Of a stretch of DNA of 64,000 nucleotides, positions 3,411 through 50,507 are shown piece after piece. How positions within the stretch are numbered: position 1 is the first letter of the stretch; each line of letters starts with the position of its first letter. The stretch spans positions 434,001-498,000 of the forward strand of contig NZ_JAKRWF010000002.1 in the NCBI RefSeq assembly GCF_022352215.1. Reading direction: 5' to 3'. Under the pieces are notes generated by a model that saw only the letters and a program-made list of their open reading frames with translations, was not told where the DNA came from and did no database searches. Source of the DNA: Flavihumibacter cheonanensis (GTDB lineage Bacteria > Bacteroidota > Bacteroidia > Chitinophagales > Chitinophagaceae). The position numbers and the translations under genes are program-made.

Positions 3411-3414
3411 ATGA

Positions 3415-13052: not shown

Positions 13053-13916
13053 ATGTCAACCCTTACCATAACCACCATTCAATCTTCACTGCATTGGGAG
13101 GATCCAGCGGCTAATCGCCGGATGTTTGCCGAAAAAATTGATTCGGTTTCTGAAAAAATGGAACTGGTTGTTTTGCCGGAAGCCTTTACCACCGGCTTTT
13201 CCATGCAGCCCGAAAAGCTGGCCGAAACTATGGATGGCCCCACGGTTAACTGGATGAAATCCCTTGCTGCGCACAAAAGAATAATCCTTACCGGATCAGT
13301 TTTTATAGAGGAAGAGGGTCACTATTTCAACAGACTGCTCTGGGTTTTACCAAACGGACAGGTGGGTCATTATGACAAACGACATCGCTTTGCCTATGCA
13401 GGTGAGGACCAGCATTTCAGTGCCGGAAGCCGACGCTTTATTGCATCCGTCAAAGGTTGGCGCATATTTCTGCAAGTCTGCTACGACCTGCGTTTTCCGG
13501 TCTGGAGCCGGCAACAATCTCACCCGCCGGGGCGTGGTGCCACCCATCGCGGCGGAGTGCCATCCGCCGGGGCGGAATACCACCGGACGGGTGAGTATGA
13601 TTTGCTGATTACAGTCGCGAACTGGCCGGAGCGGCGCAATCATGCCTGGAAAACCCTACTCGCCGCAAGAGCTATTGAAAATCAATGTTATGTGGTAGGT
13701 GTTAACCGGGTTGGAGAGGATGGAAACGGGATCTATCACAGTGGCGACTCAATGATCCTGGACCCATTGGGAACCCCCCTTTACCAGAAGGAACATGGAG
13801 AAGATATTCATACGCTAACCCTTGACATATCCAATCTGGATAAAATCCGGCAGCAACTACCTTTTCTTCGCGATGCCGACGCATTCACTCTGTTAAATGA
13901 ATCACCTGATGCCTGA
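13053..13916 (+). CDS. Omega-amidase-like carbon-nitrogen hydrolase (YafV/NIT2 type) with an in-frame repeat insertion
   Basis: This 287-residue nitrilase-superfamily enzyme has the Glu-Lys-Cys triad in LVVLPEAFTTGF, HYDKRHRF and LQVCYDLRFPVW (Cys143). The last motif and ANWPERR are typical of omega-amidases, which hydrolyse 2-oxoglutaramate or 2-oxosuccinamate. Residues 156-181, rich in Pro, Gly, Arg and His, lie between the FPVWSRQQ helix and the YDLLI strand. From memory, relatives have only a few residues there. This stretch is encoded by a GC-rich palindromic repeat (13519-13595) in frame, with all catalytic parts kept. The 3' end overlaps nagA by 20 bases. Confidence 0.88.
   Translation: MSTLTITTIQSSLHWEDPAANRRMFAEKIDSVSEKMELVVLPEAFTTGFSMQPEKLAETMDGPTVNWMKSLAAHKRIILTGSVFIEEEGHYFNRLLWVLPNGQVGHYDKRHRFAYAGEDQHFSAGSRRFIASVKGWRIFLQVCYDLRFPVWSRQQSHPPGRGATHRGGVPSAGAEYHRTGEYDLLITVANWPERRNHAWKTLLAARAIENQCYVVGVNRVGEDGNGIYHSGDSMILDPLGTPLYQKEHGEDIHTLTLDISNLDKIRQQLPFLRDADAFTLLNESPDA
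13519..13595 (+). repeat. GC-rich palindromic repeat, copy A (inside the amidase gene)
   Basis: This 77-base segment is bounded by inverted ends CTCACCCG and CGGGTGAG; 58 of 77 bases are G or C, far above the flanking gene. Inside are short hairpins built from the blocks TCCGCC/GGCGGA and CACC/GGTG. The blocks GTGCCATCCGCC and GGCGGAGTGCCA recur in other copies. It keeps the reading frame open and contributes about 26 residues. Confidence 0.75.
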
Positions 13917-15021
13917 ACCAACCATCCACCATTTTGTCAATGGCCGCATTTTTACCGGCGAAACCTGGTTAAATGAAGCAATCATATCTGTTGAGGAAGA
14001 AAGAATAGTGGAAATTTCCCCTCATCCGCCGCGGCGGAGTGCCACTCCGCCAGGTCGGGTGCCACCCGACCGGTACAAGGATTTGCAGGGGGGTATGCTC
14101 GTGCCGGCCTTTATTGATGTGCAATTGTATGGTGGTGATGGCCAGCTTTTTGGTGTTCATCCTTCTGTGGAAGCCATCCGCGCCACAGTGGATTATTCGC
14201 GAAGAGGCGGAGCCCATCTGATCCTGCCTACTGTAGCAACCAATGATAATACCGTTGCGCTGGCTGCCATCGAATCAGTGAGGGATTATCTGAACCAGGG
14301 AGGTAAAGGTGTATACGGACTTCACCTCGAAGGACCCTTCCTGAATCCTGTTAAGCGGGGTGCGCATGTACTGGAGAAAATTCAATCGCCCTCCATGGAT
14401 AAACTACGTGCACTGGTTGAACCTGGCCGGGGTATCATTAAGATGATGACCATCGCACCGGAACTCTTTCAACCGGATCAGATTCAATACCTGAAAGATG
14501 CCGGTATTATTCTATCAGCGGGACATAGCAATGCAAGTTTTGAGGAGGCGAATAAAGGGTTTGACCTGGGGATTACTACCTGCACCCATTTATTCAATGC
14601 AATGTCGCCTTTGCAACACCGCGCCCCTGGATTGGTAGGCGCCATCCTGGCACATCCGACCATTGCCTCCAGCATTGTACCGGATGGATACCATGTGGAT
14701 GCAGTGGTAATCAAAATGGCCAAGCAGCTGATGGGGGAACGATTGTTCATTATTACGGATGCGGTTACAGAGAGCAATACCGGGAATTATTTGCACCAGT
14801 TGCGTGGAGATCATTACACATTACCGGATGGAACGCTTTCAGGATCTGCATTGACCATGCTGTCAGCGGTGCAGTTTTGTGTTAAAAAAGTCGGAATTTC
14901 AATAGAAGAAGCGGTACGAATGGCTTCCTTGTATCCTGCCAGGGTATTGGGTATTGAGAAAGAGTGGGGCAAACTGGCAGTAGGATACAGGCCGGAATGG
15001 TTTTGGATACCATCACTTTAA
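13897..15021 (+). CDS. nagA: N-acetylglucosamine-6-phosphate deacetylase with an in-frame repeat insertion
   Basis: NagA deacetylates GlcNAc-6-phosphate to glucosamine-6-phosphate during amino-sugar recycling. The 374-residue sequence has the amidohydrolase signatures PAFIDVQLYGGDG, LHLEGPFLNPVKRGAH, SAGHSNAS, CTHLFNAMSPL and the catalytic Asp in IITDAV. Residues 42-59, rich in Pro and Arg, sit between the N-terminal beta strand VEEERIVEI and DLQGGMLVPAF, where relatives normally have a short turn. They are encoded by a GC-rich palindromic repeat. The start at 13897 overlaps the amidase; an in-frame ATG at 13909 is an alternative. No nagB is adjacent. Confidence 0.93.
   Translation: MNHLMPEPTIHHFVNGRIFTGETWLNEAIISVEEERIVEISPHPPRRSATPPGRVPPDRYKDLQGGMLVPAFIDVQLYGGDGQLFGVHPSVEAIRATVDYSRRGGAHLILPTVATNDNTVALAAIESVRDYLNQGGKGVYGLHLEGPFLNPVKRGAHVLEKIQSPSMDKLRALVEPGRGIIKMMTIAPELFQPDQIQYLKDAGIILSAGHSNASFEEANKGFDLGITTCTHLFNAMSPLQHRAPGLVGAILAHPTIASSIVPDGYHVDAVVIKMAKQLMGERLFIITDAVTESNTGNYLHQLRGDHYTLPDGTLSGSALTMLSAVQFCVKKVGISIEEAVRMASLYPARVLGIEKEWGKLAVGYRPEWFWIPSL
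14023..14073 (+). repeat. GC-rich palindromic repeat, copy B (inside nagA)
   Basis: Three nested or adjacent palindromes are visible. The 14-mer TCCGCCGCGGCGGA spans 14025-14038. Arms GGCGGAGT/ACTCCGCC lie around a GCC loop (14033-14051). Arms GGTCGGGT/ACCCGACC lie around a GCC loop (14053-14071). The 14-mer is shared exactly with copy E (50488-50501). The insertion is read in frame as part of nagA. Confidence 0.8.
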
Positions 15022-15033
15022 AAAAATACTTCT

Positions 15034-15510
15034 ATGGCAAAGTTGAATGCAATCGGTCTGGATGAAGCCAAAGCGGCTGATCTGGCCGGAAGACTGAATA
15101 CCCTACTCGCCAACTATTCCATATTTTATCAGAATACGCGAGGTTATCACTGGAATATCAGAGGCGAAAAATTCTTTGAACTGCATGTAAAATTTGAAGA
15201 ATTATATAATGATCTCCTTTTAAAAATTGATGAGATCGCTGAGCGTATACTCACGCTTGGATTTTCACCGGCACATAATTATTCCGATTATCACACGATG
15301 GCTACGATTAAAGAAAGCAGGGAAGTAGCGGATGGTATGAAGGCGGTGGAAAATATCCTGGGCTCTTTTCAAACGATTATTGGCCTGCAGCGTGAGCTGT
15401 TGAAAGTATCTGAAGATGCTAACGATGAAGGAACGAACGCACTCATGAGCGATTATATCCGGGCACAGGAAAAACTGGTTTGGATGTACTCAGCGTTTTT
15501 GAATAATTGA
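15034..15510 (+). CDS. dps: Dps-family ferritin-like DNA-binding protein
   Basis: This 158-residue Dps/miniferritin has the ferroxidase-site signature TRGYHWNIRGEKFFELHVKFEELYNDLLLKIDEIAERI at about residues 35-72, with the His, Asp and Glu ligands in place. Dps forms a 12-mer shell that oxidises Fe(II) with peroxide and protects DNA. The N-terminus is short and not strongly basic, so DNA binding is uncertain. It is last in the recX-amidase-nagA-dps run, 12 bases after nagA, and may also have its own stress promoter. Its stop is 1 base from the stop of the convergent next gene. Confidence 0.92.
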   Translation: MAKLNAIGLDEAKAADLAGRLNTLLANYSIFYQNTRGYHWNIRGEKFFELHVKFEELYNDLLLKIDEIAERILTLGFSPAHNYSDYHTMATIKESREVADGMKAVENILGSFQTIIGLQRELLKVSEDANDEGTNALMSDYIRAQEKLVWMYSAFLNN

Positions 15511-15511
15511 T

Positions 15512-18500
15512 TTAGCGGATCAATAAAAAACTTCCCTTTTTCTGTTGCAAGGATTGGCCATTGAGCTGGTATTGTATATTGAAAAGATAATTCCCGCTGT
15601 TTTGTTCCACTCCATTTATAGAGCCATCCCATCCGACAGAGGGGTTATTCGTGCTGAAAACTTTCTGCCCGAATCTATTAAAGATTTGAAGTGAGTAATA
15701 AGTTACTTCTCCATAAAGTAGCGGACGAAAACGATCGTTTCTGCCATCCCGGTTAGGTGTGAATGCATTGGGAACATATAAACCAAACATGCACTGTTTC
15801 TGAACAATAGAAATTGTATCTGTGCCAGTACAATTATTAAAATCTGTAACTGTTAAACTATAAGTTCCTGGTTTGCTGATAGTGATATTATTGTTGTTAC
15901 TTCCGGTATTCCATGAATAGGATTTATATTCTCCAGCGGGCAACAGAAACAATTCCTGGTATTGACATATGCTGCTATCCTCTCCCAAAAATCCTTTTGG
16001 AACGGATACGATGTTGGTTATAAAAGTTGTATCAGAACCCAAACATCCATTCTGATCCTGTACCGAAACCCAATATTTTCCGGGATTGTTTACCAGTAAA
16101 GAAGTTGAACTGGAATTATCCTGCCAGGTGTATCGTGAAAATCCTGCACCCGGGCTTAGTAATCTTTCTTCCCCCTCACAAAGGATGGAAGTTTTATCCA
16201 GGATAGGACGAGGCCTGGCAAATACATTCAAAATAGTAGCAGTATCTGCTACCTCGCAACCATTTCTATCAAAAGCACGAAGGATATATGTACCAGCCGT
16301 TTTCGCAATAATATTTTTTTCAAAAGAACCAGTGTTCCACTGATAGTTATCAAATGAGTTATCAGCAGTAAATTCAGCTTGCTCTCCTTCACATAAAACG
16401 GTATCCTCACCAATGAAAAGGGCAGGTTGGGGGTGAACTGCAATTGATAATTCATCCTGGTAGCGGCACCCACCAGCGGCAATACCAGTAAAATAATATA
16501 CAGCTGGCTCGGTTGCTTTTATTGACAAATTTGCAGCGTTTCCAACCAAATTGCTATTGATATCGAGCCACTGAAACTGTTGCAAACTGTCTGGTGCAAA
16601 AAAGCTCAAAGTTGTTCCAACACATACAACCGTGTCTTTGGCAAAATCAATTCTTATTGCAGATCTGATATCTACAATTATAGTATCAGTTTGATAATTA
16701 TTGCAATAGTCAACTCCTGTAACCCAATACTTTCCACCTGACTTAATTGAAACAGAGGCTGATTGTTCACCTGTAGACCAGGAAATAGATTTATACTTGC
16801 CAGGAACTTCTAGCGTCAACGTGGTTCCTTCACAAATACTGGTATCAGGTCCCAGTTCCAGTGTTGGAGGAAGTTCGCCAATTGGCCTGGTGATAAAAGA
16901 GTCAATGATTGGAACACAGGTTCCTTTCAAAAAAGCGAATATTTTTTGTTCTGCCAGTTGTGTGAATCGAACTGAGATGGAGTTATCTGTACGGCTTACT
17001 TCTTCTGCACCGTCTGGTAAATTCCAGGAAACAGTTTGCACACAATTTTCGTTTCTATCTGCGGTGTAGGTGTAAATACCTGACAGGTTACAAAAAGTTT
17101 CAGGACCTCTAATATTAATAAAACTGCAGGAATCCAGATAATCTCTGCATTCCTTATCAAAGTATTTTACCTGGGGATATTCTTCAATCAAATCCAACGT
17201 AGAATTTTCAACTGAAATGGAAGAATTGGAATATTCATAGTTAATAAAATCCGTGGCTTTTGGAATGGCAGTTTCCACTACTTCGTATCTACCCGCATAA
17301 TAAGCACAAATTTTGGTATCCTGATTGAAATCAGGATCAAATCGCTGAATGGTCAGTTTATTATTGGTAGCAAATGGATCCAGTCCTTCTCCTGCTGAAC
17401 TGCCCATAATCATCAGGGAACCGTCTGTGCCAACTGCCCCCATTCCCTGCGTGATTCCAATGTTATATTTAGTGCGATCCCAGAGAAGTTTAAAGTCTTT
17501 ATCAAATTTAAATACGAAAGAAGTGGTACGATCAATATTAGGAAAGCTGATATTCATACTTTGAAGCTGAACATAAAACTCGTTATCATCAATTACTCTA
17601 ATCCCAAATTCACTAGGAAAATATTTCTCATATTCATCTCGCAGGCGAACGGATTTTTCAATGTTTGCATCGGTATCTAAATAAGCAATTGTGGTTAGGT
17701 AGTAGGGTTCGGGAGGCTTGATGTAGGTTCCAGTCATAAGTAATCGGTCACCCATTTTCGCGACACTAAAAACCTGCAGAAAGTCCGTTTCATTTCCAAA
17801 TCGCTTAACCCATTCTATTTCACCGGTAGAAATATTAATTCGTACCAACACCGAAACACTTCTTGAAGTCGGGGATTCAAAATCAGAACCACCGAAGAGA
17901 ATTGGAATAAAGATTGAGTTGCCGACTACTGCGGGTTCATAAATAATAGTATTAGTAAGATTGTGTAATTCTGTAAACCGGAGCTTTTTGTTCCAAATAA
18001 CATCTCCATTAGTGCTGAACTTTGTAATAACTGTTCCTTTGGTGACATCATTTCTTGACAGATGGATAAAAGAATTATCGGGCAAGATGGTTGTTTTAAG
18101 GGGATACAGAAATTGACCATTTTGACTTATCTTTTTCGTCCAGACTTTAGTTCCATTATCAAGTAATTTAAAAAGGCCACTCTCCCCAAAGCCCCAAACT
18201 CTCGTATAGGCCCCCATATTTATACCGTTTCCAGTGCTGTTCACATAATTAATTTCAAAAGCATGATCTGTTTTATAACCCCAATTCACACAGCCCTCTT
18301 TTGTAATATTTACCAGCAAGGATTGTTCAAAAACCACTTTATTTCGGGAGGCCAGCAAATATCCTTTTTCTTCCGTGTTAGATATCGACCTGGGTAAATG
18401 ATATCCGTAATTGTTTCCCACCCAGGCACCCATATTAGGCTTCCCGACAGGAATCCTTCCGGGCTTGAATATCATTTTTGTTACGGTGTCACTGCACACT

Positions 18501-18784
18501 CCATTGGTTGCAATCAGCGTAAAATAATGATATCCAGCCTTAAGAATTCCAATAGGCTGAAAATTATCATAGAATATTTCCGGGTACTGCGAAGTGCTTG
18601 TTTTGAAAGATGTAAAGTTTTTACTCGTGTTTACCACCCGATGAACCGATACACCACCCATATAATCTGTGATGGAGTCTACCTGAATTTCAAAATCAGC
18701 TATAACCTGGCAATCTGTAGATTGAGCCCTGCTTAGAATTGGATAGAATAAGGTTAATAAAAGAAAAAAGATCCAGATCTTCAT
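15512..18784 (-). CDS. Large secreted protein with PKD/Ig-like repeats and a type IX secretion (CHU_C) C-terminal domain
   Basis: This 1090-residue protein has a signal peptide (MKIWIFFLLLTLFYPILSRAQS). Residues up to about 550 form a long beta-rich, propeller-like region. Several tandem cysteine-containing repeats of about 85 residues follow, each with a core like LGPDTSICEG, WSTG and a GxYxV strand. The last 85 residues, from PNAFTPNRDGRNDRF to the end, are the gliding-motility-associated (type B) sorting domain recognised by the type IX system. The protein should be exported and attached to the cell surface or released. The ligand is unknown. It is a single gene, convergent with dps. Confidence 0.9.
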   Translation of the reverse strand: MKIWIFFLLLTLFYPILSRAQSTDCQVIADFEIQVDSITDYMGGVSVHRVVNTSKNFTSFKTSTSQYPEIFYDNFQPIGILKAGYHYFTLIATNGVCSDTVTKMIFKPGRIPVGKPNMGAWVGNNYGYHLPRSISNTEEKGYLLASRNKVVFEQSLLVNITKEGCVNWGYKTDHAFEINYVNSTGNGINMGAYTRVWGFGESGLFKLLDNGTKVWTKKISQNGQFLYPLKTTILPDNSFIHLSRNDVTKGTVITKFSTNGDVIWNKKLRFTELHNLTNTIIYEPAVVGNSIFIPILFGGSDFESPTSRSVSVLVRINISTGEIEWVKRFGNETDFLQVFSVAKMGDRLLMTGTYIKPPEPYYLTTIAYLDTDANIEKSVRLRDEYEKYFPSEFGIRVIDDNEFYVQLQSMNISFPNIDRTTSFVFKFDKDFKLLWDRTKYNIGITQGMGAVGTDGSLMIMGSSAGEGLDPFATNNKLTIQRFDPDFNQDTKICAYYAGRYEVVETAIPKATDFINYEYSNSSISVENSTLDLIEEYPQVKYFDKECRDYLDSCSFINIRGPETFCNLSGIYTYTADRNENCVQTVSWNLPDGAEEVSRTDNSISVRFTQLAEQKIFAFLKGTCVPIIDSFITRPIGELPPTLELGPDTSICEGTTLTLEVPGKYKSISWSTGEQSASVSIKSGGKYWVTGVDYCNNYQTDTIIVDIRSAIRIDFAKDTVVCVGTTLSFFAPDSLQQFQWLDINSNLVGNAANLSIKATEPAVYYFTGIAAGGCRYQDELSIAVHPQPALFIGEDTVLCEGEQAEFTADNSFDNYQWNTGSFEKNIIAKTAGTYILRAFDRNGCEVADTATILNVFARPRPILDKTSILCEGEERLLSPGAGFSRYTWQDNSSSTSLLVNNPGKYWVSVQDQNGCLGSDTTFITNIVSVPKGFLGEDSSICQYQELFLLPAGEYKSYSWNTGSNNNNITISKPGTYSLTVTDFNNCTGTDTISIVQKQCMFGLYVPNAFTPNRDGRNDRFRPLLYGEVTYYSLQIFNRFGQKVFSTNNPSVGWDGSINGVEQNSGNYLFNIQYQLNGQSLQQKKGSFLLIR

Positions 18785-18841
18785 TATTTCCGTGACGATT
18801 AGCGTCTAATGTACTCTATATGAGTAAAATATCATAGTGTT

Positions 18842-20347
18842 TTACTGAGAATTTGTTATCAAGACCCTTACAGCTTCCACTTTCAGGTCACGGTTTTCGA
18901 TAAGCGATTGGCGGGTTGGTTTTATTTCTATATCCGGAAGTACACCCCGCCCATCCTTAACAGCAGTTGAATCAATCACCAATCTGAATTTCGGTAATCG
19001 AAAGCGTATACCGGTTTCAGGTAACCGAACATCAGGTATCAGCCAGGCAGAGTTTCCATAAGCAGCGCCACCGGTTTCTTCTCCTATCAGGGTAACATTT
19101 TTTTGCCCTTTTACCTTGGTTGCGAACAGCGCTGCCGCAGAAAAGGAATTGGGTCCGGTTAGCACATATACATTGCCGCTATAGTGATTTCTTTTTGAAG
19201 GCCTAAATGTTTTCCGCTCGAAATATCCAAAATGATAATGACCATCTGATTTTTTTCGGGTGATAAAATGCATGAGTCCGCCAATTAATCCATTGTAACG
19301 AATCATATTTTTAAAGCTGCTTTTTCTTGTTACTGCATAAAGAGAATCTGCAATTTTGAAGGGTTCGCTTACAATCTTTCTGGTCAGGAAAGTGGAGTGT
19401 GCCACATTTCCCCCGCCATTGCTCCGAATATCAACAACCAAATGTTGGATGTTCTCTTTTTTTAGCGTACTAAAGGCAGCTGATAAAAAGGATCGCAACT
19501 GATAACCATTGTTAAACGTATTAATGGTAAGATAGCCAGTGGAAAGTCCGGTATCTATTTGTAATGAACGCGCGCGGTCCAATGACCTGGCTCTTTGCTC
19601 CCTGCGTTTCCAGGGTTTCACAACTTCCGGTACAATCGGCTTTTTGACCGAATCTTTTTTTGGTGGTTCAATTAAACGAAAGGACATTAATTCCTCTTTA
19701 CCGGTACTATCCAGGTAGCCAAGCTCATAGGTATTGGAATACCCTGCCACCAATCGTAACCAACCCCCGAAGGCGCCACGATTGCTGAGTGTCTGCATCA
19801 GGTACTGCACATTATTTCCATCAGATGGTATGTGCCGGGCCAGGCTATCAACTATTTTCTTAATCGGCACCTTATTTAAACTGGTTAGAATGGTACCTCT
19901 TTTTACCAGCAGGTTACCTTTCTGCAAATTGTTATTGATGACAATGGTATCATTATCAAGAGCCTTAATCGTAATCGGGAATTGGGGTAACCTGGCGGTG
20001 TCTAAAAACCGGAGAAACTTCCTTGAATACCGGGTACTGGTATGACCGCATTTTACTTTCGCGATTACATAACTTAAGACTGATCTGAACTGTGGCTCAG
20101 TCATGGAATCTGTCAGCTGCCGATACCCCCAGTCAAAATAATAATCCATGCTGTCTTTCGGAGTGTACCAATACAAACTGGGATGAGATTCCTCCAGAAC
20201 AGACCTGAATAACTTATAATCCTTTTTTAATTGATCTGGCGCATAGGGTTCTGATGGAGACCATTTTGTACCTGATACAGCACAACTCTGCAGCAGGGCC
20301 ACAAAACACCCGAAGAACAGAAAATTCCAAAGGAAAAAGTTACGCAT
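18842..20347 (-). CDS. S41 family peptidase, lipoprotein
   Basis: This 501-residue protein has a lipoprotein signal ending in LLQSC (Cys22). A helical N-terminal region begins LKKDYKLFRSVLEESHPSLYWYT, and the C-terminal protease domain has LVVDIRSNGGGN, GPNSFSAAALFA (candidate nucleophile Ser) and LIGEETGGAAYG. S41 (tail-specific/CPBP-like) peptidases cleave C-terminal regions of secreted proteins; the substrate here is unknown. A low-complexity basic stretch around KPWKRREQRARSLDRARS lies in the middle. It begins 21 bases after thiL and is probably the last gene of the suhB-thiL-S41 unit. Confidence 0.88.
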   Translation of the reverse strand: MRNFFLWNFLFFGCFVALLQSCAVSGTKWSPSEPYAPDQLKKDYKLFRSVLEESHPSLYWYTPKDSMDYYFDWGYRQLTDSMTEPQFRSVLSYVIAKVKCGHTSTRYSRKFLRFLDTARLPQFPITIKALDNDTIVINNNLQKGNLLVKRGTILTSLNKVPIKKIVDSLARHIPSDGNNVQYLMQTLSNRGAFGGWLRLVAGYSNTYELGYLDSTGKEELMSFRLIEPPKKDSVKKPIVPEVVKPWKRREQRARSLDRARSLQIDTGLSTGYLTINTFNNGYQLRSFLSAAFSTLKKENIQHLVVDIRSNGGGNVAHSTFLTRKIVSEPFKIADSLYAVTRKSSFKNMIRYNGLIGGLMHFITRKKSDGHYHFGYFERKTFRPSKRNHYSGNVYVLTGPNSFSAAALFATKVKGQKNVTLIGEETGGAAYGNSAWLIPDVRLPETGIRFRLPKFRLVIDSTAVKDGRGVLPDIEIKPTRQSLIENRDLKVEAVRVLITNSQ

Positions 20348-20368
20348 GCAAACTGGTACTGATTCCGT

Positions 20369-21403: not shown

Positions 21404-21409
21404 TTGTGA

Positions 21410-22189: not shown

Positions 22190-22193
22190 CGGA

Positions 22194-22201
22194 CAAAGCT
22201 A
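22194..22201 (-). promoter_or_regulatory. -7 promoter element of the suhB-like/thiL unit
   Basis: The minus strand reads TAGCTTTG, an exact TAnnTTTG match 4 bases before the ATG at 22189. Transcription would start at or almost at the start codon. Confidence 0.5.
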
Positions 22202-22242
22202 AGCCACTGAGCCGATAAAAAAATTACCAATAAATTCGTGGG

Positions 22243-23331: not shown

Positions 23332-23332
23332 C

Positions 23333-23340
23333 TACTTTTG
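23333..23340 (+). promoter_or_regulatory. -7 promoter element of the GH3-like gene
   Basis: TACTTTTG matches TAnnTTTG exactly. It begins right after the stop of the glycosyltransferase gene and ends 29 bases before the ATG at 23370. Confidence 0.5.
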
Positions 23341-23369
23341 TTCTTCATCCTAATTGCAGACACACCCGA

Positions 23370-38202: not shown

Positions 38203-38264
38203 CACCGGACGGGTGGCATCGGTCGGGAGGCATCCGCCGAAGGCGCATGACACCGGTCGGGTGG
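38203..38264. repeat. GC-rich palindromic repeat, copy C (merC/SCO1 intergenic)
   Basis: This copy contains CACCGGACGGGTGGCATC, then GGTCGGG, CATCCGCC, and ends CACCGGTCGGGTGG. The blocks match copies A, B, D and E. It lies immediately upstream of the SCO1 -7 element (38276-38283), so it occupies the place of the -33 region. Confidence 0.72.
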
Positions 38265-39364: not shown

Positions 39365-39379
39365 AATTAGTTCAAAAAT

Positions 39380-41271: not shown

Positions 41272-41281
41272 AAGCAATAAA

Positions 41282-41890: not shown

Positions 41891-41930
41891 ATCTTCAAAA
41901 TTGTAAGGGAGGTGCAAGATAAAACAATTT

Positions 41931-41946
41931 TGCCACCCGACCGGTG
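41931..41946. repeat. GC-rich palindromic repeat, copy D (short)
   Basis: TGCCACCCGACCGGTG matches one module of copies B and E. It lies in the 61-base gap between the response-regulator gene and DUF5606, just after the regulator's stop codon. Confidence 0.6.
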
Positions 41947-41951
41947 AAGGC

Positions 41952-42701: not shown

Positions 42702-42702
42702 A

Positions 42703-43803
42703 TCAGCGAAGGGTTAGTAAGGGTAAACGGACAGAAAAGTGAGTATTATTTTTATCAATTGAAACTGGTCTGGAGGTAATCAGCCTGAACCGTTCAATCA
42801 GATTATTTAATCCAATACCATTGGATTGCCGAACTTTTTTTTCGCGTACTTCATTAGTAATAAGCAATTCACCACCTGATTCCTGAATTTCAATCAGCAG
42901 TGGTTGCGACTTGGAAAACTCATTGTGCTTGATAGCATTCTCAATCAGAATCTGAAGTGAAATAGGGGGTAATACAAATTGATCTGTACTTGATGCCGGA
43001 ATGTTTTTATTAACCAGAATATTATCGCCAAAGCGGATTTTGAGCAATGCAATATAGTTATCCATAAAGTCCAGTTCTTCCTGTAATAAAACAAGGTCGC
43101 GCGACTTGTTTTGTAAGATATATCGGTAAACATCCGCCAGGGTATCATTAAAAACCTGGGCTTTGTGGGGATCCGAGCTGATGAGGTGACTCAATGTATT
43201 GAGTGAATTAAACATGAAATGCGGATCGATCTGGTTCTTGAGGGCCTGCAGTTCAGCTTCTGCCCGGGCTCTTTCCAGTGTAGCATTTCTTAGTATTTCT
43301 GATTCAGATTCCTTGACCAGGAATACGGTTTCATATACATGCACTATAAAAATTACGGATATCAGAATGATGAGGCTGTTGTTCCAGATAGTATTCCAGT
43401 TGATTTCTCCCTGAAGAAAAAGATGATACCACCCAACCAGCAGCAATACAGTAACGGGTATAGTAAAAAAAGGAATCACCATTAGAAGAGCAAGGATTTT
43501 CTTTACCGGCTGGTTGAACCAATTGAAATAAGAGCGTAGTGTGAATAGCAGGAATCTGTTGCCTTCCCAGATGATCAGTGCAATTCCAATGGTGTAGAGA
43601 TAACTTAACTTGATCTGCAGGAGGCTGAATTGGTGATGCGGTACCAGGGACGTAACCAGGGGGATCACTATTCCGCAAAATGGTATCAGGATCACACGGA
43701 ATCCCACATCGTTGATCCTGCTTTCTTTTTCAGGAAGTTTTGTCGGAAAAAAATCGGCTTTGGTCGCCCTTGCTTCCGGGTTCATGCTGGTTGTCTTGGT
43801 CAT
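42703..43803 (-). CDS. LytS-like sensor histidine kinase (His_kinase/HATPase)
   Basis: This 366-residue protein has about four membrane segments in its N-terminal half (VILIPFCGIVIPLVTSLV, YLYTIGIALIIWEG, ILALLMVIPFFTIPVTVLLL, NSLIILISVIFIVHVYET). The phosphoacceptor region NQIDPHFMFNSLNTLSHLI follows, then an ATP-binding domain with LLIENAIKHNEF and GIGLNNLIERF. The long upstream frame to 44127 runs through the divergent DUF1761 gene; the ATG at 43803 fits the domain layout. It pairs with the LytTR regulator. Confidence 0.92.
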   Translation of the reverse strand: MTKTTSMNPEARATKADFFPTKLPEKESRINDVGFRVILIPFCGIVIPLVTSLVPHHQFSLLQIKLSYLYTIGIALIIWEGNRFLLFTLRSYFNWFNQPVKKILALLMVIPFFTIPVTVLLLVGWYHLFLQGEINWNTIWNNSLIILISVIFIVHVYETVFLVKESESEILRNATLERARAEAELQALKNQIDPHFMFNSLNTLSHLISSDPHKAQVFNDTLADVYRYILQNKSRDLVLLQEELDFMDNYIALLKIRFGDNILVNKNIPASSTDQFVLPPISLQILIENAIKHNEFSKSQPLLIEIQESGGELLITNEVREKKVRQSNGIGLNNLIERFRLITSRPVSIDKNNTHFSVRLPLLTLR

Positions 43804-43843
43804 TGTGAAATTAGACAATAGTTTAGGAATCAAAACAGCTAAT

Positions 43844-44257
43844 ATGGACATGAGTAGCATCAATTGGCTGGCCGTTCTGGTAGCCGGTCTCTCTGCCTTT
43901 GTAGTAGGCGGAATATGGTATTCACCCGGATTATTTGGTAAAGCCTGGATGAAAGAATCCGCATTAACCGAAGAGCAGATCCGGGCTGGTAACAAAGGAA
44001 AAATCTTTGGATTCACTGCCCTGTTTTCCCTGATTATGGCTGCCAATTTGGGCATGTTCCTGGTAGACAGCGCAGAAATAAAAACAGATCTGACATGGGG
44101 TGCAACAGCTGGATTTTTAGCCGGCATCTGGACCTTCTGTGCTATTGCTATTCATAGCTTATTCGAATTGAAATCCTGGCGGTATATCCTGATCAATGGC
44201 GGTTACTCTATTGTTTCTCTTACTCTTATGGGGGCTATAATAGGTCTCTGGCGATAA
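43844..44257 (+). CDS. DUF1761-domain membrane protein
   Basis: This 137-residue protein has four membrane helices and the DUF1761 signature NWLAVLVAGLSAFVVGGIWYSPGLFGKAWMKE at the N-terminus. The function is unknown. The ATG at 43844 (MDMSSINWLAV) was chosen; the frame is open further upstream but overlaps the divergent kinase gene. It heads a plus-strand run of five small genes with gaps of 11 to 25 bases, probably one operon. Confidence 0.87.
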   Translation: MDMSSINWLAVLVAGLSAFVVGGIWYSPGLFGKAWMKESALTEEQIRAGNKGKIFGFTALFSLIMAANLGMFLVDSAEIKTDLTWGATAGFLAGIWTFCAIAIHSLFELKSWRYILINGGYSIVSLTLMGAIIGLWR

Positions 44258-44268
44258 AACCCAAACAT

Positions 44269-44649
44269 ATGACACATTCAATCAGCTGGTTCGAGATCCC
44301 TACAAATGATCTCGCCCGTGCGCAACAATTTTATGAAACCATACTCGGACTGGAACTGATTCCTATGGATATGCCGGGTATACAGATGCGGATGTTCCCT
44401 GTTCCGGATCAAACCTACATAAGCGGGGCACTTTCCTATGCACCGGATTTTTATCAACCTCAGTCCAATGGTACCCTTGTTTATCTGAATGCCAACCCGG
44501 ATGTACAGCATATACTGGACAGGGTCGAAGCAGCAGGCGGAAAAATCATTGTCCCGAAAACCGAAATAAGTCCGGATATTGGCTTTATGGCTGTTATTTA
44601 TGATACCGAAGGCAACCGGGTGGCCTTCCATTCGGTTCCGGTTGGATAA
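44269..44649 (+). CDS. VOC family protein (glyoxalase/dioxygenase superfamily)
   Basis: This 126-residue protein has the paired beta-alpha-beta-beta-beta fold of the vicinal-oxygen-chelate family: HSISWFEIPTNDLARAQQFYETILG at the start and GFMAVIYDTEGNRVAFHS at the end. Members bind a metal and act as lyases, isomerases or dioxygenases, or serve as resistance proteins. The substrate cannot be told. It is second in the DUF1761 run, 11 bases from both neighbours. Confidence 0.88.
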   Translation: MTHSISWFEIPTNDLARAQQFYETILGLELIPMDMPGIQMRMFPVPDQTYISGALSYAPDFYQPQSNGTLVYLNANPDVQHILDRVEAAGGKIIVPKTEISPDIGFMAVIYDTEGNRVAFHSVPVG

Positions 44650-44660
44650 ATTTTTTTACA

Positions 44661-45161
44661 ATGTCAAACCATGACTGGAGCAAATTCACAGTACGGATAA
44701 ATGTACGTGCACGTAGAAGTGATTTATATGATGCCTGGACAACCAAAGCTGGAATGGAATACTGGTTTCTTCGCAAGTGTGAGTTTGTGGATGCTAAAGG
44801 ATATATCCTCGATGAGGAAGAAACAATCCGTACGGGATGTACCTATAGCTTTTATTGGCATGGATATGCCGACGAAGTGGTTGAAAAAGGTGAAATCCTG
44901 GAAGCCAATGGTCAGGACCGGCTTGTTTTCCGGTTTGGGAAAGCCGGTATCTGTACTGTTCGCATTTTAATGGCGGGAGATGAGCAGATAGTAGAAATCG
45001 AGCAGTCGGAAATACCAACAGATGAACATTCGCAATTCCAATATTATGTTGGATGTAAGACTGGCTGGACTTTTTACCTTACCAATTTGAAAAGCCTGTT
45101 TGAAGGTGGCATTGATTTAAGGAACCGGGATGTTAATCTTCAGGACATGCTAAACTCATAA
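44661..45161 (+). CDS. SRPBCC-domain protein (AHSA1-like)
   Basis: This 166-residue protein has the SRPBCC/AHSA1 ligand-binding fold: VRINVRARRSDLYDAWTTKAGMEYWFLRKCEF at the N-terminus and CKTGWTFYLTNLKSLFEGGIDLR at the end. Such proteins bind hydrophobic ligands or act as chaperone cofactors. No catalytic residues are evident. It is third in the run, 11 bases after the VOC gene. A shared promoter at 5' of DUF1761 is likely. Confidence 0.87.
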   Translation: MSNHDWSKFTVRINVRARRSDLYDAWTTKAGMEYWFLRKCEFVDAKGYILDEEETIRTGCTYSFYWHGYADEVVEKGEILEANGQDRLVFRFGKAGICTVRILMAGDEQIVEIEQSEIPTDEHSQFQYYVGCKTGWTFYLTNLKSLFEGGIDLRNRDVNLQDMLNS

Positions 45162-45186
45162 TCGTCAGACACCTTCTTCACATCAT

Positions 45187-45642
45187 ATGAAACTGTACTT
45201 CTTTATTTTGGTTGCGTTCAGTTTGAAGCAGGATACCGGTCCTTTTGAACAATTAAAACAACTGGAAGGTTGTTGGCAAAGAATTGGCACATCAGTACCG
45301 GAATACGAGGAATGGAAAATCCGGGATTCGTTTTCAATGGTCGGACGGATGTATAAAGTAAATGAAGGGGATACCCTGGTTTCTGAAGAAATACTTCTCA
45401 TTCAAAATCAACAACAGGTTTTTTATCAGGCAAAAACATTTAATCAACCGGAGCAGGAGCGTGTCAGTTTTCGGTTGACTGGATATCAAAACGGATCCTA
45501 TTTTTTTGAAAATCCCAAACATGATTTTCCACGAAGAATTGTCTATAGTTTTAAAGGATCGGACTCGTTGCATGCATGGATTGATGCAGGAGATAACAAT
45601 GCATCCACCCGTGTCGACTTTCATTTTAAAAGAGTAAAATAA
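45187..45642 (+). CDS. DUF6265-like protein
   Basis: This 151-residue protein has a conserved N-terminal LKQLEGCWQR and a central FENPKHDFPRRIVYSF, which I recall from the DUF6265 family of small beta-barrel proteins. A short hydrophobic start (MKLYFFILVAFSL) suggests export, though it is short for a signal peptide. The function is unknown. It lies 25 bases after the SRPBCC gene and 24 bases before the TolB-like gene. Confidence 0.78.
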   Translation: MKLYFFILVAFSLKQDTGPFEQLKQLEGCWQRIGTSVPEYEEWKIRDSFSMVGRMYKVNEGDTLVSEEILLIQNQQQVFYQAKTFNQPEQERVSFRLTGYQNGSYFFENPKHDFPRRIVYSFKGSDSLHAWIDAGDNNASTRVDFHFKRVK

Positions 45643-45666
45643 GACGTAAGCCCAAAACAGGTTCAT

Positions 45667-46599
45667 ATGAAAATTTTAGTACTGGTTTTCCTTTGCACCT
45701 TTTCCTGGATTTCAGCTGAGTCGCAGGATTTCAGCATCGCTTATAATGTATATGATACAGTTCAAAAAGATTATGAAGTTTATATAATGGATGCCGATGG
45801 TCGCAATAAAAAGAATCTTAGTAACCGGAAGGCCGTTGACTGGACATACCATGCAGATGGACAAACGATTTATTTTATCAGCGACCGGGATACATGCAGC
45901 CGATGTTTTTTCCTATATAAAATGAATCCGGATGGATCTGGATTGAAGAAAATAAGTGACCTGCAATTGGAAGATTCCTGGATGGATAATTTTGGAAATA
46001 CCATGCTTGTTAGTGCAAGAAAGGGCCCTGCCATTCGTTTCCAACTGGCAACTATTGACCTTGTATCCGGTTCTTTTAAGTGGTTGACAAATGATACCGC
46101 CTCCTATTTTAACGATCCGGTTTTTGTTGAAAACGGAAACCGGATCGCATACAGATTTCGTCAGCATCGCAGGGACCAGCAGGAAATCATAGAAATCTGG
46201 ATCATGCAACGGGATGGAACAAACCGACAGCAGTTAACAAGATATCCCTCTTCGGATACAACTGCTAAGTGGTATAGTTATCATGCCGGAGCACCCCGTT
46301 GGAACGCAAAAGAACAGTTTATCAGTTATCAATCATTCCGCAAAGGTCAGTATCAGCTATATGCTATAACACCTGATGGGAAAAAACAGTGGCAACTAAC
46401 CATGGGTGAACAGAATGCAGGCTGGCATGACTGGACTGCCGATGGTAACTGGCTTGTAGCAGATATAACGGATAGTAGTAACCGGAGATATGACATCGGA
46501 ATTAAACAGGTTAATGAAACGACTTTCAAAGCACTCACAGGAATCAATGACTGGAAAACCAACCTTGCTCCGGTTATTGTTGAAAAACGTAAACCCTGA
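45667..46599 (+). CDS. TolB-like beta-propeller protein, exported
   Basis: This 310-residue protein has a signal peptide (MKILVLVFLCTFSWISAESQ) and several WD40-like/PD40 repeats, such as IYFISDRDTCSRCFFLYKMNPDGSGLKKIS and IWIMQRDGTNRQQLTRYP. These are found in TolB-type propellers. It should sit in the periplasm and bind a protein or sugar partner. No catalytic motif is seen. It is last in the five-gene run and converges with pfkB. Confidence 0.82.
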   Translation: MKILVLVFLCTFSWISAESQDFSIAYNVYDTVQKDYEVYIMDADGRNKKNLSNRKAVDWTYHADGQTIYFISDRDTCSRCFFLYKMNPDGSGLKKISDLQLEDSWMDNFGNTMLVSARKGPAIRFQLATIDLVSGSFKWLTNDTASYFNDPVFVENGNRIAYRFRQHRRDQQEIIEIWIMQRDGTNRQQLTRYPSSDTTAKWYSYHAGAPRWNAKEQFISYQSFRKGQYQLYAITPDGKKQWQLTMGEQNAGWHDWTADGNWLVADITDSSNRRYDIGIKQVNETTFKALTGINDWKTNLAPVIVEKRKP

Positions 46600-46612
46600 A
46601 ACAGGGCTGACG

Positions 46613-47539
46613 CTACTGGTTACTTAGCCAATCAAAAAGGCGATCTGCATCAATCCTTTGAAACAACTGGGTTCCCGGATTCATGGTCGCAGCTGTTCCG
46701 CAAGCCACTCCATATCGAATGATATCAGCAGGATCAGCATTTTTCCAGATCTGGTAGCACATTCCGGCAACCATGGAATCACCGGCGCCAACTGTACTCT
46801 GCTTTTTTACTGTTGGAGCCGGGACACGAATCACCTGGTCTTTGTTAACCAATATGGCACCCTGAGCACCCAAAGAAACTGCTACCATCCTGCAGGATCC
46901 TTTTTTCAGCAGTCTCTGTGCTGCTTCCACCACCTGATCTGTTTCCAATGCCGAAACTCCGGACAATTGACTCAATTCATTCAGATTTGGCTTTACCAGG
47001 TAAACGCCAGCGGCCACCGCCAGTTCCAGAGGTTTGCCGGAACAATCAATTATAGTTTTGGCTCCCAGCTCATTGGCAAGTGTTACCAATCGTGCATAGA
47101 AATTATCCTTGAATCCGGGAGGCAGACTGCCGCTTCCTACAATAATTTTCGGAGCAACCGGAAGATTTCTGATAGCACTAAGAATGTCTTCTTCAATTTC
47201 CGGTTGAAGGGTTGGTCCGGGTAATACAAATCGAAACTGGTTATTGCTTTGCTCTTCAAGGACCACTATATTCTCCCGGGTTTCTCCTGGTATTTGAATG
47301 GTATGGTAAGAAATTCCTTCTTCCCGAAGGCAGGCTTCCAGCTGCTTTCCATTAAAACCACCACTGGTAATCAGTGCCTTATTTGGCGCTCCTAATCGTT
47401 GGAGGCCTTTGCTTACATTAATCCCTCCGCCTCCTGCTTCCACCACCATATCACTGCACCTGAGTTTTTTTTCAGGAATCAACTGGGTTGTTCGAGTACT
47501 TTTATCAACTGCCGGATTCGGTGTTACAGTAAGGATCAT
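46613..47539 (-). CDS. pfkB: 6-phosphofructokinase II-like kinase (PfkB family)
   Basis: This 308-residue protein resembles E. coli PfkB along its length: TLTPNPAVD-type N-terminus, KLRCSDMVVEAGGGGINV, FRFVLPGP, IIVGSGSLPPG, VKPNLNELSQLSG, VVSLGAQGA and the catalytic STVGAGDSMVAGM. It phosphorylates fructose-6-phosphate, or possibly fructose-1-phosphate or tagatose-6-phosphate, since the family is mixed. The match to the E. coli minor phosphofructokinase is the basis for the symbol. It begins 5 bases after the DsbA-like gene's stop. Confidence 0.82.
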   Translation of the reverse strand: MILTVTPNPAVDKSTRTTQLIPEKKLRCSDMVVEAGGGGINVSKGLQRLGAPNKALITSGGFNGKQLEACLREEGISYHTIQIPGETRENIVVLEEQSNNQFRFVLPGPTLQPEIEEDILSAIRNLPVAPKIIVGSGSLPPGFKDNFYARLVTLANELGAKTIIDCSGKPLELAVAAGVYLVKPNLNELSQLSGVSALETDQVVEAAQRLLKKGSCRMVAVSLGAQGAILVNKDQVIRVPAPTVKKQSTVGAGDSMVAGMCYQIWKNADPADIIRYGVACGTAATMNPGTQLFQRIDADRLFDWLSNQ

Positions 47540-47544
47540 GGCAC

Positions 47545-48198
47545 TTAATTTTTATTCAGGTCAGCCAATACCGCTTCGATACGTTGAATAAAACTTGCTT
47601 CATCGGTATATCCGCGAGCCAGCATAAAGAATTTGCTTTCGCTGACCTGCATCAGTACACAGGGATACCCGGTGACCTGTAACTGTTTACAAAGCTGAAA
47701 CTCATAATAGGCTTTCTCTTTATATTCTTCGGAGCCCAGCTTTTGGTAGAAATCATCCGCGTCAAGATTATACTTCTCCAATAGATGGCGGTAGGCCTCG
47801 TTATCACAAAGATCCCTGCCTTCAAAATGCAATGCATACTGTAAATCGGAAGCGAATTCAACCTGTTGATCCGGATAAATATCTTTGAAAATGCACAGTG
47901 CAATAGCCGGTTTTTCCGAATTCGGGTACCAATCACTCAAATCGGGATTAAAAATATGCCAGAGATAGTCTTGTCCGAACCGGATACCGGTTAATTCTTC
48001 CACTGACTTATAAGCATCAGCAATATATCCGGCCATAATACCAATATGCCTTGGCTGGTCAGGTAGGATCATACCACCGGATAATACTTCGAACCCAACC
48101 CGGTCGGAATAGAGTTTATGGATTTTTTTGATAACCGGACTAAAACCATAGCACCATCCGCAATAAGCATCGTAGCAATAATAAAGTACAGGGGTCAT
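47545..48198 (-). CDS. DsbA-family thioredoxin-fold protein (FrnE-like)
   Basis: This 217-residue protein has the thioredoxin-type CxxC in YDAYCGWCYGFSPVIKK at residues 10-26 and no signal peptide, so it is probably cytoplasmic. Its helical insertion and the late cis-proline-type GYPCVLMQ fit the FrnE/DsbA-like group, which includes polyketide and oxidative-stress oxidoreductases. The substrate is unknown. It is upstream of pfkB by 5 bases and probably co-transcribed with it. Confidence 0.88.
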   Translation of the reverse strand: MTPVLYYCYDAYCGWCYGFSPVIKKIHKLYSDRVGFEVLSGGMILPDQPRHIGIMAGYIADAYKSVEELTGIRFGQDYLWHIFNPDLSDWYPNSEKPAIALCIFKDIYPDQQVEFASDLQYALHFEGRDLCDNEAYRHLLEKYNLDADDFYQKLGSEEYKEKAYYEFQLCKQLQVTGYPCVLMQVSESKFFMLARGYTDEASFIQRIEAVLADLNKN

Positions 48199-48307
48199 GC
48201 TGCAAATTACCAGCTTTCAGCGGGACTTTCACTGACTATTAATGAGATCTTAACAACCGAACCGTTTGTACCTGGGTTATTGTTTAACTTACAGCAAAGC
48301 TGATTTT

Positions 48308-49828
48308 ATGGAAAATGCAACAATCGAAGTAAGGAATTTAACAATGGCGGATTACCAGGAATTGAAAGAATCCATGATTGAGGCCTATGCCAGCATGGGC
48401 GGACAATACTGGGGCGAGGAATCCCTGGCCAAGCTCATTAAGAAATTTCCGGAAGGTCAGATCTGTGTAACACTCGACGGTCGTGTGGTGGGATGTGCCC
48501 TCACCCTTATAGTTAATTTCAACCGGTTTGGTGACACCCATTCCTACCGCCAGGTTACGGGTAATTATACCTTTGACACACATGATCCGCAAGGGGATGT
48601 TCTTTATGGAATTGAGATGTTTATCCATCCTGAGTTTCGTGGATTGCGGTTGGCCCGGCGTTTATACGAGGCCCGTAAAGTATTGTGTGAAAACCTGAAT
48701 CTGCGGGCCATTGTTGCAGGTGGCAGAATTCCGGGATATGGAAAGTACGCGGAAGATATGACGCCGCGCGAATACCTGGAAAAAGTCAAGCGCCGGGAAT
48801 TACATGATAGTACGCTTAGTTTTCAGCTGGCAAATGATTTCCAGATTAAAAAAGTGATGCAGCATTACCTGCCCGAGGACAGGGAATCCCGCGGTTATGC
48901 AACCCTGTTAGTATGGTACAATGTATATTATGAACCAAACCGAAATGCGCTGAACCTGCGGAAGGATTTTGTCCGTATCGGATTGGTTCAATGGCAAATG
49001 CGGCAATATGCAACATTAAAGGATATGATGGAGCAGGTTGAATATTTTGTGGACGCGGTAAGTGATTACAATTCTGATTTCTGCCTGCTGCCTGAATTGT
49101 TCAATGCTCCTTTGATGGAACAGTTTAATCATCTGCCCGGGCATGCAGCGATTCGCGAGCTGGCTGCATTAACACCTGATATCGTAGATGCTCTTTCCAA
49201 ACTGGCCATCTCGTATAATGTGAATATCATCGGTGGTTCCATGCCTTCCATCCGGGATGGAGAGTTATACAATACATCTTATTTCCTGCATCGGAATGGC
49301 CGAATTGACTTTTACGACAAAATCCATCCTACACCTTCAGAAGAATATGAATGGGCCATAAAAGGCGGGGATAAAATCCAGGTAATTGAAACGGATGCTG
49401 GTAAGGTTGGTGTGTTGATCTGTTATGATGTAGAGTTTCCGGAGTTATCAAGACTATTAGCTGATCAGGGTATGCAGATATTATTTGTTCCTTTTTTAAC
49501 GGATACACAAAATGCGTATAACCGGGTACGTTATTGTGCTGCGGCGCGGGCAATCGAAAATGAATGTTTTGTTGCGATTGCCGGAACGGTGGGTAATCTG
49601 CCTAAAGTGCATAATATGGATTTACAATTTGCGCAGTCAGCTGTACTGACTCCTTCTGATTTTGCTTTTCCGGTGAATGGCATTAAAGCGGAAGCTACAC
49701 CCAATACGGAAATGATCATTGTGTCAGATGTGGATCTGACCCTTTTATCGGAATTGCATGAATATGGAAGTGTGACTACCCTGAAGGACCGTCGCCATGA
49801 TCTCTATGAGCTGAAATTACTCAAGTAG
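48308..49828 (+). CDS. GNAT acetyltransferase fused to carbon-nitrogen hydrolase
   Basis: This 506-residue protein has two domains. The first (about residues 5-210) is a GNAT N-acetyltransferase with IEMFIHPEFRGLRLARRLYEARK as the acetyl-CoA loop. The second (about 225-500) is a nitrilase-type hydrolase with Glu in CLLPELFNAP, Lys in FYDKIHPTPSEEY and Cys in VLICYDVEFPE. This fused architecture is known in several bacteria, but the substrates are not. An amide might be hydrolysed and the product acetylated, which is inference. The ATG at 48308 was chosen over one at 48266. Confidence 0.9.
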   Translation: MENATIEVRNLTMADYQELKESMIEAYASMGGQYWGEESLAKLIKKFPEGQICVTLDGRVVGCALTLIVNFNRFGDTHSYRQVTGNYTFDTHDPQGDVLYGIEMFIHPEFRGLRLARRLYEARKVLCENLNLRAIVAGGRIPGYGKYAEDMTPREYLEKVKRRELHDSTLSFQLANDFQIKKVMQHYLPEDRESRGYATLLVWYNVYYEPNRNALNLRKDFVRIGLVQWQMRQYATLKDMMEQVEYFVDAVSDYNSDFCLLPELFNAPLMEQFNHLPGHAAIRELAALTPDIVDALSKLAISYNVNIIGGSMPSIRDGELYNTSYFLHRNGRIDFYDKIHPTPSEEYEWAIKGGDKIQVIETDAGKVGVLICYDVEFPELSRLLADQGMQILFVPFLTDTQNAYNRVRYCAAARAIENECFVAIAGTVGNLPKVHNMDLQFAQSAVLTPSDFAFPVNGIKAEATPNTEMIIVSDVDLTLLSELHEYGSVTTLKDRRHDLYELKLLK

Positions 49829-49836
49829 TTTACAAA

Positions 49837-50439
49837 TTACGTGTATTTCCAGTTGCGGTTTTTGCCATCTGCGATCCATTCCACTGCCTGGTCGATTCGT
49901 TTCTGTCGGGTGGCATCGGTTTTCGCTTCTGTGATCCATTCAATGTATTCTTTCCGGTGACTATAGCTGAATTTATCAAAGACCTCCCAGGCGCGATGGT
50001 TTTTCCGTAGCGCCTGTTCAAATGCGGGAGGAAGCATACATTCTTTGTGGTTGGAGGTAGTTTTGCGTGGAAGTTTAATACCCTGTTCGTTGAGCAGCAT
50101 GGCCTCCTGAAGTAGTGTGGTGAAGTGAACAGGAAGATCGTCGATCGATTTGATAGGACCGAGATGCCCCATTGACTTTTCTTCCCGGGCATTTTGCAAT
50201 AAAGTAGGATCCTTCATCAGGGCTGCCTTCCAGAAGGTGAATGCGCAATGGTTCTTAAAACCTGCGAAACTGCAAAGCACTTCGTTTTTGTATTCAAAAT
50301 GCGGCATGCCCCATTTAACAGTTTCTTTGACCTCCGGGCAGGTCCTGTGAATTTGCTCCCTTATATGCAGCAGGATGGGCTGGGCAAAAGGCTGAGCTTT
50401 TGCTATGTAATCGTCGATGCGGGAGTCCAACTGCGGCAT
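49837..50439 (-). CDS. YdeI/OmpD-associated family protein
   Basis: This 200-residue protein has an N-terminal DUF1801 domain (KWGMPHFEYKNEVLCSFAGFKNHCAFTF) and a C-terminal YdeI-like domain with the conserved SHRKEYIEWITEAKTDATRQKRI and GKNRNWKY. In E. coli, YdeI is tied to stress resistance, but the molecular role is not established. It ends 8 bases from the stop of the GNAT-hydrolase gene, in convergent orientation. Confidence 0.85.
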   Translation of the reverse strand: MPQLDSRIDDYIAKAQPFAQPILLHIREQIHRTCPEVKETVKWGMPHFEYKNEVLCSFAGFKNHCAFTFWKAALMKDPTLLQNAREEKSMGHLGPIKSIDDLPVHFTTLLQEAMLLNEQGIKLPRKTTSNHKECMLPPAFEQALRKNHRAWEVFDKFSYSHRKEYIEWITEAKTDATRQKRIDQAVEWIADGKNRNWKYT

Positions 50440-50469
50440 ATCCTAATTTACGCAAATTCCCTGATTCCA

Positions 50470-50507
50470 GCCACCCGACCGGTGCCATCCGCCGCGGCGG
50501 AGAGCAC
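50470..50507. repeat. GC-rich palindromic repeat, copy E (polA/YdeI intergenic)
   Basis: The block GCCACCCGACCGGTG (also in copies B and D) is followed by CCATCCGCCGCGGCGGAG, whose 14-base palindrome TCCGCCGCGGCGGA (50488-50501) is identical to the one in copy B. It fills most of the 71-base gap between the polA stop and the upstream YdeI start. Confidence 0.78.

Follow-up and report, generated by a model that had tools for sequence, protein, structure and literature searches.

A genus-restricted, modular family of REP-type palindromes in Flavihumibacter and its repeat-flanked RAYT gene

Results

Five GC-rich stretches belong to one modular family

The window, 64,000 nucleotides of contig NZ_JAKRWF010000002.1 of Flavihumibacter cheonanensis, holds five GC-rich palindromic stretches, copies A to E, that a sequence-only reading had picked out as one repeat family; all five were found where it placed them. 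We describe this family, the repetitive extragenic palindrome (REP)-associated Y1 transposase (RAYT) gene that lies elsewhere in the same genome (4.84 Mb, G000 below; other G labels denote the related genomes compared), and the turnover of the repeats among relatives. The copies are built from a 13-bp unit, CACCSGWCSGGTG, which has two subtypes, type A (CACCCGACCGGTG) and type T (CACCCGTCCGGTG), each taken to include its reverse complement, and from a second hairpin unit, TCCGCCnnGGCGGA, that is sometimes joined to it. The copies and the two genes that contain A and B are as follows.

13053..13916, + strand: carbon-nitrogen (CN) hydrolase gene of the YafV/PRK10438 type, holding copy A
13519..13595, unstranded: copy A, a second-type unit (13563-13576) and a type T unit (13581-13593), in frame in the amidohydrolase (CN hydrolase) gene
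13897..15021, + strand: nagA, N-acetylglucosamine-6-phosphate deacetylase, holding copy B
14023..14075, unstranded: copy B, a second-type unit (14025-14038), then decayed inverted units, in frame near the nagA N terminus
38203..38264, unstranded: copy C, a type T unit (38203-38215), decayed middle units and a type A unit (38251-38263), lying between divergent MerC-domain and SCO1/SenC genes
41931..41946, unstranded: copy D, a single type A unit (41934-41946), directly past the stop codon of a gene for a LytTR response regulator
50470..50507, unstranded: copy E, a type A unit (50472-50484) and a second-type unit (50488-50501), 3 bp past the DNA polymerase I stop

The GC content is far above that of the surroundings, as had been read (0.725 at 13520-13599, against 0.436 for the whole window), and the copies do lie both in genes and between them, A and B inside reading frames and C, D and E in intergenic DNA. 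The palindrome TCCGCCGCGGCGGA is found unchanged in B (14025-14038) and in E (50488-50501), again as read. Other details needed amending. The exact 16-mer TGCCACCCGACCGGTG occurs only once on the plus strand, at D; in B, C and E it is present as a near-version or as the reverse complement, A has the other subtype (13581-13593), and the real unit is 13 bp long. The arm-GCC-arm pattern is present, but is really the junction of two adjacent units (GTG-C-CAC). The picture of copies assembled from hairpin modules fits the family, except that D is one unit alone. Chance does not explain the window modules: neither module pattern occurred in 30 simulations by a first-order Markov model, whereas the window itself has 5 and 3 matches. 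An Rfam scan of the window returned no family over threshold.

The base unit is an imperfect palindrome of the form CACC-S-G-W-C-S-GGTG, with 127 exact sites in G000 and none for the reversed pattern, which served as the control for module counts; the search for further copies proposed with the sequence-only reading thus found many. The pattern TCCGCCNNGGCGGA had eight sites in the whole genome, against none for its reversed control, and among the loci examined 10 of 12 distinct second-unit copies had a first-type module (≤2 mismatches) inside 35 bp; at random places the figure was 92 of 8280. Units stack at a pitch of 14 bp in either orientation, commonly as an inverted pair, and tandem units also occur. 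After three multi-unit elements at record ends were dropped, 116 distinct elements remained, in which the spacer between stacked units was C or G at 149 of 149 junctions (152 of 152 with the record-end elements kept), so that each junction reads GTGGCAC on one or the other strand. TT preceded 61 of these elements and AA followed 64, with both in 46. A gapped pattern written for one supposed module arrangement gave no matches.

The unit ends are CACC and GGTG by definition, and the CGTC tag of Rickettsia palindromic elements (RPEs) is absent. The doublet is 27 bp long and has no stop in any of the six frames. Folded as DNA, the two doublets beside the RAYT gene form stems of 14-15 bp (z -7.1 and -7.9); the values for copies A, B and C were -3.2, -3.6 and -2.6, and the folding of D and E was not significant. 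By eye, complementary outer flanks had seemed a general feature, an impression that we discarded, as a clear excess was found only in G205, where complementary bases outside the core reached at least 6 nt in 9 of 49 multi-unit elements and at least 10 in 7 of 49 (cross-paired control, 0.17% at ≥10). Against cross-paired controls the effect was slight in G202 (3 of 20 at ≥6 nt) and was not seen in G008 (1 of 26) or G000 (0 of 10). Some outer complementary arms in F. stibioxidans records (L033, L041, L091 and others) resemble further hairpin units.

The family is confined to one genus and enters genes in frame

A survey of 195 Chitinophagaceae genomes included four from the window's genus, and these had 127, 144, 21 and 0 sites matching the CACCSGWCSGGTG pattern. 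Outside the genus, 22 of 191 genomes had one or two sites and the others none, which is similar to the reversed control. The family is therefore essentially confined to the Flavihumibacter-type genus; distant relatives do not have the stretches at the corresponding sites. A doublet scan of named species gave at least 98 stretches at no fewer than 80 loci. Among the matches listed were F. stibioxidans, F. fluminis, F. solisilvae and two Flavihumibacter without a species name, together with two metagenome-assembled genomes (MAGs), one bearing the label Flavipsychrobacter and the other an unclassified Bacteroidota. The JAEUVF records (L034 and others) belong to a Flavipsychrobacter-titled MAG that probably falls in the same genus as the Flavihumibacter genomes, and the title may be outdated.

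With a crude longest-open reading frame (ORF) model, which called ~90% of the DNA coding, 98 of 128 elements were intergenic, 26 lay in ORFs and four were unclassed; several of the 26, copy D among them, are probably in false ORFs or false N-terminal extensions. The median distance of intergenic elements was 9 bp to the closest gene 3' end (n=79) and 50 bp to the closest 5' end (n=72), and convergent gaps held 26 of the 98, compared with 161 of 844 gaps in the background. Family searches identified as host genes those for CN hydrolase, NagA, MnmE, HemW (with several elements), asparagine synthase, a beta-lactamase2/polysaccharide-deacetylase protein, a PMT_2-domain protein and an SNF2 helicase, and, weakly, a LuxE-like protein. 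The open frames suggest that peptides from the in-frame copies are made. A HemW-like gene of F. stibioxidans (L092:2951-4201 and 4462-4908) carries several in-frame elements and has a distant RAYT-like match (31-36% identity) in its vicinity.

At the copy A insert, the CN hydrolase is longer by 16 residues than its homolog in PDB entry 2e11. From RQQ to EYD, the loop has 25 residues in G000, 5 in G195 and 23 in G202; it is also long in G205 (17) and G179 (24), which have no repeat-derived sequence there, so that the loop is a tolerant one. Elsewhere in the window, between two converging ORFs, an inverted repeat at 3406-3473 has 27-nt arms, 85% complementary and 14 nt apart; it is probably a two-way terminator unrelated to the repeat family.

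A single-copy RAYT gene lies between copies of the local palindrome

Within the genus, 15 genomes were compared. A search of these with PF01797 (Y1_Tnp) gave weak matches in four, two of them above the family cut-off, and each match lay between two copies of the local palindrome. A profile built from the four genes retrieved orthologs in eight of the 15 genomes at E 1.5e-80 or better, one per genome. The RAYT protein has 191 residues and the motifs NHYH (HYH) and WYIHRNP (YIHRNP), and it matched the NCBIfam family REP_Tyr_transpos (NF047646) at E 4e-14; the sole match of the RAYT profile in the PDB was 4er8, 'TnpArep' (E 0.027). A RAYT gene elsewhere in the genome, which the sequence-only reading had named as something to look for, is therefore present and repeat-flanked. 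All eight orthologs have palindromes on both sides, in the local version:

G000: type T
G008, G202: type A
G205, G204: CACCCGTCGGGTG
G200, G108: related or shorter forms
G198: ACCCGSCGGGT, beside a RAYT gene interrupted by an internal stop

The gene lies upstream of ggt and after an M14-peptidase-like gene (named from its sequence). Both neighbors are present in 15 of 15 genomes, with RAYT between them in the eight. G195 and G203 have lost the gene and keep one repeat scar at the locus, G196 keeps a 53-residue RAYT remnant there, and no RAYT trace was found at the ggt locus in G179, G197, G199 and G201. A single copy at one locus, with several losses, marks a gene that has been vertically kept and is not a spreading insertion sequence. 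Between G000 and G008 the RAYT dN was 0.113 and dN/dS 0.082, compared with dN of 0.048 and 0.036 and dN/dS of 0.050 and 0.043 for the two neighbors; a dN/dS of ~0.08 indicates a gene under constraint, though one that evolves faster than its neighbors.

Repeat abundance followed the state of the gene. Exact-module counts were 127, 184, 48, 48, 144, 240 and 21 in the seven genomes with intact RAYT, and 34, 1, 2, 0, 0, 0, 11 and 16 in the eight without (G198 included), a difference with a Mann-Whitney p of 0.001 among genomes that are related to one another.

A second, more distant RAYT-like clade occurs in the genus (L214, L215, L217, L218, L221; E ~1e-31 to 1e-22). The palindromes near it are built on TGTCTGACA/TGTCAGACA or CGTCTGACG/CGTCAGACG, and clade and palindromes together are probably another REP/RAYT system. 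RAYT-like genes (E 1e-20 or better) were found in 41 of the 195 family genomes, including L277, L278, L280, L283 and L285 of other genera; among 27 flank pairs (L277-L303), many, not all, had a palindrome of their own common to both sides.

Slots turn over rapidly, with apparent in-place change of subtype

The window is collinear with G195 and G008; G195 and G203 are closest to G000 by DNA identity (~91%). Copy A is almost identical in G203. The content of A, B, C and E differs or is missing in at least one relative: the copy B slot differs in G008, G195, G202 and G203, the copy C slot in G008, G195 and G202, and copy E is absent in G202 and degenerate or different in G008 and G195. Copy D is common to G008, G195 and G202 and absent in G205. 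The empty sites that the sequence-only reading proposed to seek were thus found, as empty or near-empty orthologous sites in relatives. Across 43 comparisons of orthologous slots (module called with ≤2 mismatches, some slots entered from both sides), identity was ≥0.8 in four, the partner had no module in 20 and a different module in 19. The same identity was reached by 153 of 214 element-free 3'-intergenic windows and by 84% of 1960 random windows.

At type T slots of G000 the partner was nearer to type A in seven of seven comparisons covering six slots (five with G008, two with G195); other comparisons of type T slots had no partner module (six), were tied (one) or were skipped for distance (one). 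Two of the six slots are the RAYT gene flanks and one is inside asparagine synthase. Among the first 50 G000 sites listed, type T was multi-unit at 14 and single at six, and type A at one and seven, respectively (p = 0.011, excluding one mixed element and one further variant). Type T is thus mostly multi-unit and type A mostly single, which makes T look young and A old, and in G000 the newer subtype T apparently occupies slots of the older subtype A.

The asparagine synthase (asnB) slot has three units in G000, of type T, and three in G195, of type A. G202 has three type A units with other borders, G201 has one decayed unit, and nine other asparagine synthase orthologs have no unit in the loop. 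G000 and G195 differ at 7 of 41 bases, which does not exceed neutral divergence (ggt and the M14-like gene have dS of 0.31-0.35). The changes run jointly toward the local consensus, and this suggests replacement.

Discussion

A REP-type family with a cognate RAYT

The interpretation offered in the sequence-only reading is supported: the repeats are real and form a REP family restricted to the genus, with a RAYT of its own. The pairing is known in other bacteria, and the modular build is unusual. Our preferred reading, to which we give a probability of about 0.82, is that the stretches are copies of a REP-type family dispersed and maintained in trans by the one cognate HUH/Y1 transposase. By analogy with TnpA_REP proteins, the RAYT would bind single-stranded hairpins of its own genome's type, excise or copy them, and insert them chiefly just 3' of genes, where they would be tolerated. 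Because the 27-bp doublet is open in all six frames, some insertions in tolerant coding loops would survive in frame. RAYT and repeat would then co-evolve. We infer these catalytic steps, the movement of the repeats by the RAYT and its part as driver of replacement. The GTG-S-CAC present at each junction (149 of 149) sets GTGG directly ahead of a CACC stem, and could replace the outer-foot guide of canonical REPs.

Several points weigh against this reading. Transposition was not observed. The PF01797 score of the G000 protein was 21.4 bits against a cut-off of 23 (24.4 bits was also recorded), and the NF047646 scores of 52.6 and 45 bits are below the curated cut-off of 80; the E-values of these matches were significant. 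An outer GT[AG]G foot is present in only 4 of 116 elements and missing from the other 112. No target duplication, one of the marks that had been suggested for comparison, was established, and there is no defined insertion border; in the one clean case, element 32, TCA stands on each side of the insert, which is too little for such a claim. G195, which lacks RAYT, still has 34 sites, and G108, which has it, only 21. Finally, the count test uses related genomes, two of them (G203 and G204) only 55% and 75% complete, and the exact pattern suits some versions better than others and may miss diverged ones such as the ACCCGSCGGGT beside the G198 gene.

The subtype replacement invites a further step, which we regard as doubtful though worth stating: occupied slots might act as landing pads into which the RAYT swaps new copies, so that a changed RAYT-repeat pair would sweep the genome in place, even in housekeeping genes, with GTG-S-CAC as a hidden GTGG guide. 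If true, this would be transposase-driven concerted evolution.

The main alternative to RAYT-driven replacement is recombination among copies, in which template switching during replication and homologous gene conversion would make the RAYT unnecessary for replacement. The modular arrays of tandem and inverted units would fit this, the seven F. stibioxidans elements with at least 10 complementary bases outside the core are in keeping with it, and at the asnB slot common to both genomes G000 and G195 stand only as far apart as neutral divergence allows. We nevertheless consider it improbable, since it accounts neither for the local-version flanks at every one of the eight RAYT genes nor for the low counts in genomes without an intact one, and the excess of complementary flanks is slight in G202 and absent in G008 and G000.

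Equally improbable is that the hairpins are host regulatory elements (terminators or stabilizers of mRNA 3' ends) under selection and linked to the RAYT only incidentally. Their position close to gene 3' ends, their share of convergent gaps and the strong folding of clean doublets would suit such a role. On the other hand, slot presence and content change far faster than 3'-intergenic controls, copies lie inside open reading frames, and repeat abundance tracks the RAYT; moreover, T to the left and A to the right of elements is the reverse of an intrinsic terminator. We rejected an intrinsic terminator as the sole explanation because of this flank order, the turnover and the RAYT link; elements may have gained a role in transcripts later. 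Selection of the in-gene copies as functional peptides, an idea once put forward for RPEs, with intergenic copies as by-products, would fit the presence of in-frame copies in such proteins as CN hydrolase, NagA, asparagine synthase, MnmE and HemW, but is very hard to credit given that only 26 of 128 elements lie in called ORFs when ~90% of the DNA is called coding, that frames and peptides vary among copies, and that the CN hydrolase loop is also long where no repeat-derived sequence is present.

Relation to known systems

Like the REP/RAYT pairs (REPtrons, TnpA_REP) of other bacteria, the Flavihumibacter system has a single-copy HUH/Y1 gene with palindromes on both sides that occur in many copies across the genome, mainly outside genes and near gene 3' ends, and transposase and repeat co-vary. 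It differs in the rarity of the outer GT[AG]G foot, in having 13-bp units one C or G apart, in the second hairpin unit that joins them, and in its many in-gene copies. As described in excerpts of PMC6006769, TnpA_Y1 subclass 2.6 (Bertels group 5 according to that paper) is found mostly in Bacteroidetes; the 'atypical secondary structures' on its flanks are without GT[AG]G and have copies elsewhere in the genome. The Bacteroidetes host, the atypical flanking palindromes with genomic copies and a similar protein length are common to our system. The signatures tabulated there, NH[LIV]H and YIH[QN]NP, differ from NHYH and YIHRNP, and we therefore do not assign the RAYT to subclass 2.6.

REPINs, treated in PMC3116915 and PMC8049555, share with this family an inverted pair of units as the common form, but in the extracts of these accounts their spacer is longer (71 bp between ends in one group, PMC3116915) than the 1 bp here; in-place overwriting of repeats was not found in those extracts. 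Intragenic REPs, RPEs included, are reported in PMC3733652, which in its excerpted text describes palindromes in frame within genes, singly or grouped, as here. They carry a CGTC or GTAG end tag that is not present here. The likeness to RPEs drawn in the sequence-only reading lies in behavior, namely in-frame entry into genes, and not in sequence; REP/RAYT is the closer kind. No published description of the Flavihumibacter family was found in the part of the literature that our search covered. One Flavihumibacter paper with the word 'palindromic', PMC4575449, was set aside because in the text available the word occurs only in the title of a cited reference on CRISPR.

The most interesting point is the apparent in-place replacement of one subtype by another. 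The genus offers a natural comparison, with one RAYT locus at which sister species have retained the gene, disrupted it or lost it, clear subtypes and slots whose content has been replaced, so that overwriting by the RAYT is directly testable in sister genomes. The family also adds a lineage in which REP-type repeats lie in frame in housekeeping enzymes, and it bears on how REP repeats spread and why bacteria keep domesticated transposases.

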